Below, one piece after another: positions 14,267-18,720 of a stretch of 64,000 nucleotides of DNA. The translations under genes were made by a program, and so were the position numbers. Each line of letters begins with the position of its first letter. The stretch's first letter is position 1. The stretch covers positions 1 to 64,000 of the forward strand of contig NZ_QHJG01000005.1 in the NCBI RefSeq assembly GCF_003184185.1, given 5' to 3'. The notes beneath the pieces were generated by a model that saw nothing but the letters and a program-made list of their open reading frames with translations, ran no database searches and was not told the DNA's origin. Source of the DNA: Legionella qingyii. GTDB taxonomy: Bacteria > Pseudomonadota > Gammaproteobacteria > Legionellales > Legionellaceae.

Positions 14267-15346
14267 TCATCTCCTGAACTCATTAAAATGAAGAGGGAGT
14301 GGGTCAAAGGGGCGGTTTTCCTCGCAAATACGTTGTAAAAGCCACATCTCTTCACCCTGAGCTTTCCCAACTTCTTTGCACCAATAAGTATGAGCATCAT
14401 CTACTTTCCCATTCCTATCAGCCTCAACATAGAGCCTTTCACATGTTCTATAGTGATTAATCAGTTTAAATCCAGTACGACTATCACGATAATGTACGCC
14501 CTCGTGTTCAAATTGAATTCCATCGCGTTGCAAAGAGTATTGTAAGGTTTTGGCAATCAGTTGATGTTCTGCATCATTCGAACGGCGTCCGGAATTATTC
14601 TCCATGGAGTCGAAGAGCTCATGGAGTTGATCCCACTGTTCTGAACTTGGGTTCACATGAAGTTTCCTGACTTCCCTCGTTTTACGATTCGCATAATAAA
14701 AATGGACTTCATTCTTATCGTCTTGATAATAAATAATCCCATCCGGATTTTCTAATAGGGGGAAGGTAATTTTATGTTTGTTTCGGAAGTTTTTGGTTTT
14801 AAATTCAATAATTCCTTGGAAATCCTCGCCCGCTACTAATAAAGGGTCACGGTCTAATTTAATTAAATCAGCCCCACCTGTACCCATCTCAGCAGATTGC
14901 TGCTCGCATGTTGCTGCAAATTTCGGTGGAATATAGGGTATGATTTGATTTTTCATGTCCGAATCACAGAGAAATAGGATGAGTTGATAGGCGGATACCT
15001 GATAAAAATTCCTTTGGCGAGGGTCTGTGACGTGCCCTTTATCAAATAAGACGTCAGGTTTCCTTTTTGCAATTAAGATTATACCCGCCACATCCCCTTG
15101 TACCACACACATCCTGGCTTTGAGGGCTAAAGCGATGTCTAAGTTAGGTTTGAATAAATTATAGGTTGTTATGGATGATTGCGCTAAATTTGATAAATCT
15201 TGAATGGATAAATAACCAGCAATTTCTCCCTCAATCTCTTTGGATAAGAATTTAAAATCATTGCTTGGGTCTCTTGGAGTTAAGGAGAGCTTTTGTTTAC
15301 TACCTACCATAATATTGCCTGCCCAATCATTAATTACAGCGACCAT
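14267..15346 (-). CDS. F-box-like protein, putative Dot/Icm effector, probably truncated
   Basis: A 359-residue protein. Residues about 34-68 (LSKEIEGEIAGYL, then IQDLSNLAQ) fit an F-box, a eukaryotic module that recruits SKP1 of SCF ubiquitin ligases and is known in Legionella effectors. The next part (GHVTDPRQRNFYQVSAYQL, about residues 105-125) resembles a segment I recall from other Legionella effector-like proteins. No enzymatic motif was seen. The frame continues for 66 codons past the stop, so this is probably a nonsense-truncated allele. It stands alone on the minus strand between rplQ and ssb. The effector role is inference from the domain and host genus. Confidence 0.6.
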   Translation of the reverse strand: MVAVINDWAGNIMVGSKQKLSLTPRDPSNDFKFLSKEIEGEIAGYLSIQDLSNLAQSSITTYNLFKPNLDIALALKARMCVVQGDVAGIILIAKRKPDVLFDKGHVTDPRQRNFYQVSAYQLILFLCDSDMKNQIIPYIPPKFAATCEQQSAEMGTGGADLIKLDRDPLLVAGEDFQGIIEFKTKNFRNKHKITFPLLENPDGIIYYQDDKNEVHFYYANRKTREVRKLHVNPSSEQWDQLHELFDSMENNSGRRSNDAEHQLIAKTLQYSLQRDGIQFEHEGVHYRDSRTGFKLINHYRTCERLYVEADRNGKVDDAHTYWCKEVGKAQGEEMWLLQRICEENRPFDPLPLHFNEFRR

Positions 15347-15751: not shown

Positions 15752-16225
15752 TTAGAATGGAACGTCATCATCTAGCTGGTCAAAAGCATCTTGTGGTACT
15801 TGCATAGGTTGCTGTCTTGTAGCATTTTGGTTGCTTGGTGTAAATTGGGCTTGTGGCATCTCATCAAAACTGGATGATGCAGCCCCTCCTTTACTGTCTA
15901 GCATTTGAATGTCATTAGCTACAATCTCAGTAGTGTATCTATCTTGACCTTGCTGATCTTGCCACTTTCTTGTTCTTAAACTGCCTTCTATATAGAGCTT
16001 AGATCCTTTGCGTACGTATTCACCAGCGATTTCACCTAAGCGGTTAAAACAGACTACACGATGCCATTCGGTCCGCTCTTGCTTTTCGCCGGTTGCTTTA
16101 TCCTTCCATGCTTCACTGGTGGCAATTGATAGTGTCGTGACTGCATTGCCATTTGGTAAGTAACGTACGTCAGGGTCAACGCCTACGTTGCCAATTAGGA
16201 TGACTTTATTTATACCACGTGCCAT
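15752..16225 (-). CDS. ssb: Single-stranded DNA-binding protein
   Basis: SSB, 157 residues. The N-terminal OB-fold (1-110) starts [21 protein letters not shown] and has [29 protein letters not shown] Gln/Pro/Asn-rich linker follows, and the C-terminal tip DDDVPF is the partner-binding peptide that recruits replication and repair proteins. The length is normal. A GGAG site precedes the ATG. Confidence 0.96.
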
Positions 16226-16354
16226 TTTTGATCTCCTGTATGCGAAAGTTAGGAGAAGAGTATACCTAATTTATATATCCCTTGCACGGATGTGTTGAAA
16301 TAGAGCGCGGTTAACAAGGTTAATATATGAGGTAAGCTTAGAGTCAAACACAGG

Positions 16355-16978
16355 TTAATCAAAAAGGGTTTTATCCGAGCTTGAAACAAGTTCATACAGG
16401 CGTGTAATTTGTTTCTGGGTCACCCTATGGGTTGAAAGTGGTGGCAGGAGGGCTAAGTCAAAAAAATCAATTTCAGAAATTTCCAGATTTTCTTTTGCTG
16501 TCCCAGACAAGATTTCACAATGGAAGAAACATTTATAGGTATGAGGCCATTGTAGTGGATGATCATGTTTTTGTTTATCCCATAATGCAAGCAGTCGGAT
16601 TACAGAAACATCAAAGCCTGTTTCTTCCTTTGCTTCTCTGATTACTGATTCTGATGCGGATTCATTTGTTTCCGCCCAACCACCAGGTAAGGTCCATAGC
16701 CCATCTGAGCGTTCTTTAACTAATAGTATTTTATTATTTTGTAGAATAAAAGCACGAACATCTATTTTAGGCGTGGCATATCCTTGTTCTAATGAAAAGA
16801 TCTGTTTTATCTCCGAGAGTGGAGTATCTGAATATTTCGCCATAAATTCAGAAGCAATCTCCCGAAGTCTTAAATAACGTTCTTTATCAAATTCATTTTT
16901 TGAATAGCATAGTCCATTTTGAGCAATAGCTTGGATTTCTGTGATATATTTTAGCCAACTAAAATCAACTTTAGACAT
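16355..16978 (-). CDS. Nudix hydrolase with N-terminal Nudix-associated domain
   Basis: A 207-residue protein. Residues about 5-65 match the helical N-terminal domain found in YjhB-like Nudix enzymes (IAQNGLCYSKNEFDKERYxRLREIA). The Nudix box is complete: G-x5-E-x7-REA-K-EE-T-G-F near residues 98-120. Such enzymes split nucleoside diphosphates linked to another moiety; the substrate cannot be told. It is transcribed away from the MerR-QueF gene, with 92 bases between the two starts, so both could respond to the same operator. Confidence 0.85.
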   Translation of the reverse strand: MSKVDFSWLKYITEIQAIAQNGLCYSKNEFDKERYLRLREIASEFMAKYSDTPLSEIKQIFSLEQGYATPKIDVRAFILQNNKILLVKERSDGLWTLPGGWAETNESASESVIREAKEETGFDVSVIRLLALWDKQKHDHPLQWPHTYKCFFHCEILSGTAKENLEISEIDFFDLALLPPLSTHRVTQKQITRLYELVSSSDKTLFD

Positions 16979-17018
16979 AATGTATTATCCCTATAGAATG
17001 TTATTTTCATTTTATCTA

Positions 17019-17049
17019 TTGACTCTCACGTAACGTGATAGTTTAAAAT
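17019..17049 (+). promoter_or_regulatory. MerR-type promoter with operator dyad
   Basis: TTGACT at 17019-17024 and TAAAAT at 17044-17049 are separated by 19 bases, the over-long spacing typical of MerR-family targets. Inside the spacer is a perfect dyad, TCACGT (17026-17031), A, ACGTGA (17033-17038). The start codon of the MerR-QueF gene follows at 17071 after AGGAGAAG, so autoregulation is likely. The sequence is seen; regulation is inferred from how the MerR family works. Confidence 0.7.
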
Positions 17050-17070
17050 TCGTCTTCAGGAGAAGATTGA

Positions 17071-18321
17071 ATGAAATATTACCAAATAAAAGAGATTAGC
17101 CAAATGACCTCATTAACAATTAGGTCATTACAATATTATGATGAGATTGGTTTATTAAAACCAACAAAACGTTCCATGAGTGGCTATCGTCTTTATTCTG
17201 AAATGGATTTAATACGATTACAACAGATTACCACGTTAAAGTTTTTGGGTTTTTCTTTATCGACCATCAAAAAGATTACAGAAAATCCAAATTTTGATGT
17301 GATGGCATCCATTGGCATACAAGCACGCGAATTAACTGAGAAAGCTGCGCGGATTAATGAAGCGGCTTCTTTGCTTACTTACATTTCCAGCCAAATGGAA
17401 ATGGATCAGCCGGTAAATTGGAAAAGTACTGCAAAAATTATAGAAATATTGGAGTTAAATACAATGAATGATCACGTTCTGCAGAAATATCAATCTGAAG
17501 CTGCAAAATCTGAATTAGGGAAAAAATCTGCATATGATGATACGTATAACCCGGATCGGTTATACCCCATTCCGAGAACAGGCAAGCGACAGGAAATTGG
17601 AGTTGATCCAATGCAATTACCTTTTTATGGCTTTGATTGTTGGAATCACTATGAAGTTTCCTGGCTTAATGCTAAAGGAAAGCCTATGATCGCAATTGCG
17701 GAATTATTTTATGATTGCAGCTCACCTAATCTGATCGAGTCAAAATCATTAAAACTTTATTTTAATTCATTCAACAACACTCGAATTCAAAATGTTGAAG
17801 AATTAGAAAATATGATTAAAAAAGATTTACAAGAACGTGTTGGTGCGGAAGTTTGGGTGAAGATTCATCTTTTAGAGGCAACCAATCAGTTTGCGGTACA
17901 ACCGTCTTTAATGGGGGAGTCACTGGATCATCTTGATATAGAGTGTTCTGTATATCTTGTTGAGCCCTCATTTCTCACTACAAGTGATGAACTAGTAGAA
18001 GAGACATTATGCTCCAATCTACTGAAGTCAAATTGCCTGGTCACCAACCAGCCTGATTGGGGAAGTGTGCAAATTGCTTATAAAGGAAAAAAAATTAATC
18101 GCGCAGGTTTATTGAAATATCTTGTTTCATATCGAAATCATAACGAGTTTCATGAACAATGCATTGAACGGATATTTGTTGATATTATGAACTATTGTAA
18201 ACCCGAACAGTTGACTGTATATGGTCGTTACACAAGACGAGGTGGTTTGGATATCAATCCTTATCGTTCTACGGAAAAGACTTCATTTGCAGATAAAAAT
18301 TTGCGCTTGGTTCGTCAATAA
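17071..18321 (+). CDS. queF: Fusion of a MerR-family regulator to QueF (preQ0 reductase)
   Basis: One uninterrupted 416-residue frame. Residues 1-131 are a MerR regulator: winged helix-turn-helix (YYQIKEISQMTSLTIRSLQYYDEIGLL, GYRLYSE) and a dimerisation helix (about 75-115). Residues 132-416 are a full-length QueF of the long, two-module type (E. coli QueF has 282 residues). QueF reduces 7-cyano-7-deazaguanine to 7-aminomethyl-7-deazaguanine with NADPH for tRNA queuosine. Active-site residues are present: ESKSLK (223-228), Cys322 and Asp329 in KSNCLVTNQPDW, and HNEFHEQ. The QueF part begins at Met132 (ATG 17464), which has GGAG at 17451-17454, so a separate QueF may also be made. A MerR-type promoter lies upstream. 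Confidence 0.9.
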   Translation: MKYYQIKEISQMTSLTIRSLQYYDEIGLLKPTKRSMSGYRLYSEMDLIRLQQITTLKFLGFSLSTIKKITENPNFDVMASIGIQARELTEKAARINEAASLLTYISSQMEMDQPVNWKSTAKIIEILELNTMNDHVLQKYQSEAAKSELGKKSAYDDTYNPDRLYPIPRTGKRQEIGVDPMQLPFYGFDCWNHYEVSWLNAKGKPMIAIAELFYDCSSPNLIESKSLKLYFNSFNNTRIQNVEELENMIKKDLQERVGAEVWVKIHLLEATNQFAVQPSLMGESLDHLDIECSVYLVEPSFLTTSDELVEETLCSNLLKSNCLVTNQPDWGSVQIAYKGKKINRAGLLKYLVSYRNHNEFHEQCIERIFVDIMNYCKPEQLTVYGRYTRRGGLDINPYRSTEKTSFADKNLRLVRQ

Positions 18322-18328
18322 TAAAATC

Positions 18329-18385
18329 ACTACTTAGTAGATTTGAGTTATCCATAAAGTTAACTCAAATCGGAACATAAGTAGT
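18329..18385. repeat. 57-base imperfect inverted repeat after queF
   Basis: GATTTGAGTTA (18340-18350) pairs perfectly with TAACTCAAATC (18361-18371) around a ten-base loop. An outer pair, ACTACTTA (18329-18336) with TAAGTAGT (18378-18385), extends it. It starts eight bases after the queF stop, so it may end or protect that mRNA, although no U-run follows. Confidence 0.6.
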
Positions 18386-18453
18386 ATCATGACAAAAAAA
18401 TTTTTGGCAAGATCCTTATCTTACTGGATTTGAAACAACAGTTAATACAGTCA

Positions 18454-18577
18454 CAGGACTTACGAAAAATCCCAATCTCTTCGTTAAAAAATGATTTTAA
18501 TTCGGTTATTTAGTATATCTAAATTCCCTCATTAAAAACATTTTTTGCCTCGACCTTGGCGTTTTTCGTAAGTCCTG
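18454..18577. mobile_element. MITE-like non-coding element with 16-bp terminal inverted repeats
   Basis: CAGGACTTACGAAAAA at 18454-18469 is the exact inverse of TTTTTCGTAAGTCCTG at 18562-18577; the match extends to about 22 bases with two mismatches. The element is flanked on both sides by AGTCA (18449-18453 and 18578-18582), a 5-bp target-site duplication. The 124 bases carry no transposase, so it would need one supplied from elsewhere. The parent insertion-sequence family cannot be named from this window. Confidence 0.8.
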
Positions 18578-18720
18578 AGTCAATGGAAATCAAATGACAG
18601 TTCACGAAACAATTTTTACGTTTTTTCTGGAAACTAGGAACGTGATCATGGAGTGATAGGGGGTTATGACGTTTTAGAAGCGAAGAAGAGATAATTATCA
18701 CCCCGTTATACCCCCTTTTT

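Follow-up and report, generated by a model that had tools for sequence, protein, structure and literature searches.

Why should a DNA-binding unit of the MerR type and a complete QueF, a core tRNA-modification enzyme, be encoded in a single reading frame? The question is raised by merR-queF, an open reading frame (ORF) at 17071-18321 (+) of a 64,000-nucleotide stretch of Legionella qingyii DNA (contig NZ_QHJG01000005.1, positions 1 to 64,000), hereafter the window. On balance, we favour the answer that this one gene encodes an autoregulatory sensor-enzyme pair built on the plan of the TipA class of regulators, switched by preQ0 and accompanied by an internally started enzyme. Comparison of sequences supports the fusion and its conservation, an autogenous TipA-class operator, internal start signals and an intact active site, and reveals no intact QueF beside the fused form in most genomes having the fusion. 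Beyond this, we infer that both products are made, that the promoter is activated and not repressed, that preQ0 is the signal and that feedback operates. The features on which the argument draws are given below. Counts out of 33 refer to distinct fused genes, with identical genes taken once and the frameshifted copies L045-L048 and the MerR-broken L108 excluded; counts out of 75 refer to fused proteins, namely the window protein P0001 plus 74, two short ones (P0028, P0059) having been dropped.

17019..17024, + strand: -35 element TTGACT of the putative autogenous promoter; TTGAC starts 47-55 bp before the ORF in 33/33 genes
17025..17043, + strand: 19-nucleotide (nt) spacer with a TipA-class operator, palindrome TCACGTAACGTGA at 17026-17038; the consensus TTGACYCTCACGTNNCGTGAT is matched at 18-21 positions in 33/33 fused genes and is like the published mta, skgA and tipA promoter DNAs
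17044..17049, + strand: -10 element TAAAAT, separated from the -35 element by 19 bp; TANNNT is found at this distance in 33/33
17058..17062, + strand: Shine-Dalgarno sequence AGGAG for the full-length product, read from the sequence
17071..17463, + strand: MerR half, codons 1-131, with winged helix-turn-helix 4-71, long helix 77-110 and helix 117-131 (Pfam, secondary structure of the model, ratio of nonsynonymous to synonymous substitution rates (dN/dS) 0.065)
17451..17454, + strand: internal Shine-Dalgarno sequence GGAG in codons 127-128 (TTG GAG); GAG in 33/33, TTG in 32/33
17464..17466, + strand: internal start ATG, codon 132; Met in 33/33 genes and 75/75 proteins
17464..18321, + strand: QueF half with stop codon, TIGR03138 match at residues 144-416 (Pfam, NCBIfam, solved-structure matches; Cys322 and Asp329 in 75/75)

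An earlier note on this DNA had claimed that a MerR DNA-binding unit and a complete QueF share one frame, and had named a stop or frameshift between the domains as its refutation. The claim is borne out. All 416 codons are open, with neither stop nor frameshift, and Pfam places MerR_1 at residues 4-71 (6.5e-16), QueF_N at 155-265 (4e-44) and QueF at 328-403 (4.1e-29); the N-terminal winged helix-turn-helix matches PF13411/PF00376. The NCBIfam model TIGR03138 spans residues 144-416 with 398.9 bits against a cut-off of 293.45, the ESKSLK motif occupies residues 223-228, and Cys322 and Asp329 lie where the note had put them. A structure model of the full-length protein (mean predicted local distance difference test score (pLDDT) 83.5, from 65 sequences) has two folded halves joined by residues 130-150, the sole segment with a pLDDT below 50; the internal start at codon 132 falls within this joint.

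By every feature compared, including both T-fold modules, the TIGR03138 match, the fold and the residues, the enzyme half is predicted to be an ordinary bimodular QueF. Its solved-structure relative by sequence is Vibrio cholerae QueF, and Foldseek aligns it to 3S19 with a TM-score of 0.95 (normalised to the target) at 50% identity. Glu223, Glu362, Cys322 and Cys364 are invariant among the 75 fused proteins, so that the catalytic Cys and Asp, the active-site Glu and the QueF-motif Glu, as these roles are described in the available text of PMC5372742, are all kept. The conserved cysteines also admit a different sensor, in which the full-length protein would report oxidation of the Cys322-Cys364 pair and not preQ0. 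The corresponding cysteines of B. subtilis QueF form a disulfide, and all 1375 bimodular QueF sequences analysed in that study retain the second Cys (PMC5372742). However, according to the same source, ordinary bimodular QueF conserves this pair to the same degree; the pair is not specific to the fusion, and we judge a redox switch unlikely.

The earlier note had looked to homologues for the same joining, and the survey finds it conserved. Among 143 genomes of the order, every one of them placed in a single family, 40 contain an uninterrupted, full-length MerR-QueF match in one frame. Of these 40, 27 belong to the genus of the nearest genome and 13 to five further genera; one additional fusion (G092) is interrupted by a contig end. 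The fusion is therefore not a product of chance. A search with residues 1-140 returned 114 proteins, 74 of which carry the MerR, QueF_N and QueF domains; the named organisms among these 74 are Legionella, Fluoribacter and an unclassified gammaproteobacterium. The genus is represented by 45 genomes: an intact fusion is present in 27, a broken MerR half with an intact QueF in two (G008, G013) and only a free QueF in 16. No separate free QueF was found in 26 of the 27 intact-fusion genomes, the exception being G045; these counts cover relatives only, as the window's own assembly lay outside the genome set. QueC scores above its cut-off in 44/45 genomes of the genus and Tgt is found in 45/45. Taken with the absence of a separate QueF, this makes the fused form the likely working reductase in fusion-bearing genomes.

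Which promoter, then, would the MerR half control? According to the available text of PMC9909328, MerR regulators bind promoters with long spacers and distort the DNA to re-align the -35 and -10 elements. Each of the 33 fused genes has TTGAC followed, after a spacer of 19 nt, by TANNNT, and the -10 element stands 16-24 bases before the ORF; an operator of the type CTCACGTNACGTGA lies between the two elements in every case. Scored against the 21-position consensus, 25 genes match at 21 positions, six at 20, one at 19 and one at 18. In 226 gene pairs with less than 75% protein identity, the stretch from operator to -10 element is 83% identical versus 33% in the 31 nt just upstream. The TipAL, Mta and SkgA promoter DNAs given in the available part of PMC7762955 match the fused-gene consensus at 18, 20 and 18 of 21 positions, and agreement with the mta DNA given there reaches 25/26 positions for the operator of locus L010 and 21/26 for that of the window. 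The operator thus appears to be autogenous, the MerR half controlling the promoter of its own gene. Comparison in this way supports the earlier suggestion of control at its own promoter to the extent that an operator lies there. The note had also described 17019-17049 as a dyad; the palindrome is present, but it sits in the spacer of a region that has the promoter form TTGACT-N19-TAAAAT.

The site is largely confined to this gene. A scan of the 45 genomes of the genus, allowing two mismatches, gave 45 sites in 31 genomes, compared with one site for a reversed-pattern control. Judged by their coordinates, 39 of these 45 sites immediately precede a merR-queF copy, broken copies counted. The other six stand at TipA-like genes (G022, G028), a decayed TipA-like gene (G009), a coding frame (G010), a free queF (G035) and a MerR-only remnant (G044); none of the 45 is at another queuosine gene. 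Two of these, both two-mismatch sites in fused genomes, were considered as extra targets and rejected, that in G009 belonging to the decayed gene and that in G010 lying inside a dihydropteroate-synthase-like frame (named by eye). Intact Legionella TipA-like genes with the same type of site exist (L130, L175), and the L175 product has TipAS. Further scans of the locus were negative within their reach: a sigma-70 scan of 16900-18500 gave 7 sites against 6.9 expected, considering only spacers of 16-18 nt and being blind to a 19-nt promoter; no terminator-like site was found; and Rfam, at E-values up to 1, gave no riboswitch or other RNA family in 16200-18700.

A divergent Nudix gene starts at 16978 of the window, some 40 bp from the beginning of the operator region, which lies upstream of that start, and the earlier note had suggested that the fusion might control this gene as well. 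The comparison does not support this extension. A Nudix gene is adjacent in only 10 of 27 fused loci looked at, the -35/-10 pair is directed towards merR-queF, and the operator is kept at the L. longbeachae (L008) and L. santicrucis (L076) loci, which lack the Nudix gene. Joint control of both genes is accordingly rated improbable.

The second feature of the layout is the start within the frame, where nine bases separate GGAG from ATG. Codon 132 is ATG and codon 128 GAG in all 33 genes, while at codon 127 TTG is used by 32 genes and CTG by the remaining one; in the same genes, GAG accounts for 32% of Glu codons and TTG for 22% of Leu codons. Among the nine invariant Glu columns only column 128 is GAG throughout (4-20 of 33 in the others), column 132 is the sole column with ATG in every gene, and the codon is the same throughout in five of 161 degenerate invariant columns. 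Further, no other in-frame ATG is preceded by a Shine-Dalgarno-like 4-mer in as many as 5 of the 33 genes, and codon 132 is so preceded in every one. The conserved Met132, present in 75/75 proteins, could by itself reflect a constraint on the protein; such a constraint would hardly account for the codons used at 127-128. This pattern indicates that the internal start is under selection, and it lends substance to the earlier proposal that the ATG at 17464 could yield free QueF. No strong RNA structure was found around this start (z 0.52).

If the enzyme can be made alone, the MerR half might be a mere passenger, joined by chance and tolerated since the internal start supplies QueF. Indeed, the MerR half is broken in G008 and G013 and deleted in several lineages. 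However, the median dN/dS over 19 genes is 0.065 for the MerR half, equal to the 0.066 of QueF, and the operator is kept in 33/33 fused genes across diverged flanks, while 48 of 50 free genes score below 18/21. Selection on both the MerR half and the operator disfavours the passenger reading, which we hold to be very improbable.

The losses themselves are informative. A quick tree of 84 QueF halves, comprising 34 fused (including L108, with its broken MerR half) and 50 free genes after exclusion of duplicates and most genes below 56% identity, requires at least nine changes between the fused and free states, but cannot itself separate gain from loss. One fusion followed by several losses of MerR is favoured, given a single junction and linker remnants in L090, L024, L022, L030 and L041. 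An operator score of at least 18/21 is found in 34/34 fused versus 2/50 free queF genes, those of G035 and L024. In G035, MerR is gone and the promoter, operator (21/21), linker end and internal start are kept, its queF being the only one found in that genome (88% complete); L024 retains 19/21 operator positions plus a linker remnant; and L029, sister of the fused L017, keeps the -10 element with an operator of 16/21. The best operator match of the remaining free queF genes is 15/21 or lower. In G013, with a broken MerR half, the only QueF found remains open, and stop-bearing MerR remnants stand upstream in other genomes, e.g. G129 and G108. Collectively, these comparisons suggest repeated losses of MerR in which linker remnants and the internal start stayed behind, usually followed by decay of the operator.

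The class of regulator concerned can be read from the relatives of the MerR half. Its nearest MerR relatives without QueF are proteins of 248-262 residues with 38-54% identity, and nine of the first ten (P0078-P0087) have TipAS, confirmed as a domain in P0078. The solved-structure relatives by sequence are, best first, MtaN, 3QAO (a MerR-like regulator), SkgA and TipA, and Foldseek matches SkgA, 3QAO and MtaN. In the available account of PMC7762955, tipA is autoregulated and has two starts, and in this class the unliganded C-terminal domain hinders DNA binding until ligand, bound covalently through a Cys of TipAS, relieves the hindrance. As judged by comparison, MerR-QueF agrees with the TipA class in its DNA-binding half, its operator and its predicted two-start design, a likeness that the earlier note did not mention. 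TipAS (PF07739) was not found in P0001 at E-values up to 0.1, QueF standing instead; in the absence of this domain, MerR-QueF, though like TipA in its operator and two-start layout, would not be a member. It rather resembles a TipA-class autoregulator in which the antibiotic-binding TipAS has been replaced by QueF.

The mechanism that we favour follows this plan. The full-length product (1-416) would comprise a TipA-class DNA-binding half, a flexible linker and a bimodular QueF, the last in place of the TipAS ligand domain. As a dimer, it would sit on the operator in the 19-bp spacer of its own promoter and switch it through the DNA distortion typical of MerR. In QueF, the counterpart of Cys322 binds preQ0 covalently as a thioimide (available text of PMC5372742), and occupation of the active site, most likely by preQ0 as this thioimide, would release the DNA-binding half to activate. 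The start at codon 132 would give QueF alone, which would carry out the bulk of preQ0-to-preQ1 reduction and, by consuming the preQ0 signal, close the loop. We infer this feed-forward loop, in which preQ0 on the full-length protein activates and free QueF removes preQ0, from the literature on ligand switching in TipA, DNA distortion by MerR regulators and the QueF thioimide and homodimer. A more specific version, in which a catalytic intermediate is itself the transcriptional signal, so that the TipA-class activator reads the preQ0-Cys322 adduct of its own enzyme domain and turnover sets promoter output, is put forward tentatively, as a possibility short of even.

The same two products could, however, serve a circuit that needs no ligand. 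The full-length protein would control the promoter regardless of preQ0, and the circuit would count QueF dose. MerR regulators act as dimers; free QueF could pair with the QueF half of a full-length chain, and the mixed dimer, having one DNA-binding half, could not hold the operator. The two products would share one dimerising enzyme domain, with no extra ligand response required, and the bimodular V. cholerae QueF (3S19) is a homodimer in the available text of PMC5372742. Nevertheless, TipA-class relatives are ligand-switched (PMC7762955) and QueF already captures its ligand covalently (PMC5372742), as far as these accounts go. We consider this homeostat, the main rival of the preQ0-switched circuit, to be somewhat unlikely.

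Several observations weigh against the preQ0-switched, autoregulatory circuit. The structure model is a monomer and does not represent the dimer. As to the internal start, four further invariant columns also use a single codon (AAA, TAT, TAT, TTT), and plain nucleotide conservation places codons 126-128 no higher than sixth among 414 three-codon windows; it is codon choice, and not a conservation peak, that carries the signal. The two free queF genes that score at least 18/21 mean that operator and MerR are imperfectly coupled; among six independent pairs, the two are associated in 4.5 on average and never in the opposite sense, but the sign test is not significant (p 0.0625), and the association across tree pairs is suggestive only. 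G007 has the fusion, yet no site within two mismatches. MerR was lost several times with QueF kept, which implies that the regulation is dispensable in some lineages. When MerR residues 1-115 were sought up to 1.5 kb upstream of 55 free queF genes, one weak match was obtained (L049), and most of these genes show no MerR remnant beyond the linker. Finally, the TipA-like genes of G022 and G028, in the same family, have a site of this type, and matches to P0078, with the fusions counted among them, occur in 41 of 45 genomes; a TipA-like sister could also read the merR-queF operator.

Copies are also found on plasmids. Four Legionella plasmids of ~144-150 kb carry a two-piece, frameshifted merR-queF, and an L. 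adelaidensis plasmid carries an uninterrupted one. Frameshifted versions occur in 7/45 genomes (G001, G002, G008, G010, G017, G022, G031), each with an intact-QueF copy on another contig. These frameshifted copies (L045-L048 and those of the seven genomes) lie on plasmids or plasmid-like contigs and have the same scores in all seven genomes; the other copy of G008 has a broken MerR half, so each copy there keeps a different intact half. The plasmid and island versions (L011 2445-3896 (-), L012, L013, L021, L045-L048) have a block of neighbours in common that encodes a D12-class adenine DNA methyltransferase as well as a shikimate-kinase-like protein bearing a LuxR-type helix-turn-helix. A phage origin was considered and rejected: 96 phage records match the query and none covers 80%. 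Locus L140 of G044 holds a MerR-only remnant with an intact operator and a truncated QueF, with a separate free QueF in the genome. Beside the Nudix gene, five relatives have a second MerR gene (L001 2283-3224 (-), L002, L003, L005 and, shortened, L004), of 313-314 amino acids in 4/5 and ~39-47% identical to the MerR half, with no Pfam TipAS match in L001; it was not seen in the window stretch compared. The window also has a 359-amino-acid ORF at 14267-15346 (-) with no Pfam match at an E-value of 0.01 and no counterpart among the compared loci, its N-terminal part being F-box-like by eye only.

The fusion has left little trace in names or titles. Named fused entries are labelled QueF, preQ(1) synthase, GTP cyclohydrolase or 7-cyano-7-deazaguanine reductase, an annotation gap in that the DNA-binding half is omitted. 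Among the papers listed on QueF with MerR, MerR-enzyme fusions, queuosine regulation and Legionella queuosine, judged by titles and abstract openings, nothing on a MerR-QueF fusion was found; most subscription journals lay outside this search, which makes it weak evidence of absence. A single gene of Legionella and its close relatives thus has the look of a sensor combined with the catalyst that makes a building block of queuosine, a modified tRNA base. Should the proposal be correct, a core tRNA-modification enzyme would sense and control itself at the DNA level, at a locus without a riboswitch match, and an enzyme would have taken the place of an antibiotic sensor as a module of the TipA plan. 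Related genomes already show natural losses of the one half or the other.

PutA, BirA and NadR are likewise enzymes that are also transcription factors. As in the MerR-QueF proposal, enzyme and DNA binding reside in one chain acting on its own genes; the folds differ, and we know of no internal-start, enzyme-only product for any of the three. With bimodular QueF (TIGR03138; V. cholerae 3BP1, 3S19), MerR-QueF shares a match above the cut-off, the fold and the catalytic residues; unlike it, the merR-queF product adds a DNA-binding extension of 131 residues, and the usual QueF start sits in frame inside a longer gene. The likeness to the TipA class (TipAL/TipAS of Streptomyces lividans, Mta, SkgA), as these systems are described in the available sources, lies in the MerR winged helix-turn-helix and coiled coil, the operator sequence at the promoter and the autogenous layout. 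TipA has two start codons, for the full-length regulator and for the C-terminal domain alone, and the matching start signals are conserved in MerR-QueF; TipA captures its ligand covalently by a Cys in the C-terminal domain, and QueF has its catalytic Cys and preQ0 thioimide. The difference is that the C-terminal domain is the catalytic QueF and not TipAS, with no drug-resistance link seen. Like preQ1 riboswitches, MerR-QueF would couple the level of a queuosine precursor to a queuosine gene, but those are RNA-based, whereas at merR-queF the sensor would be the enzyme itself. If the full-length protein does read its own preQ0-Cys322 adduct, the preQ1 riboswitch would have a counterpart made of protein, and the sensor domain of TipA would prove replaceable by a metabolic enzyme.
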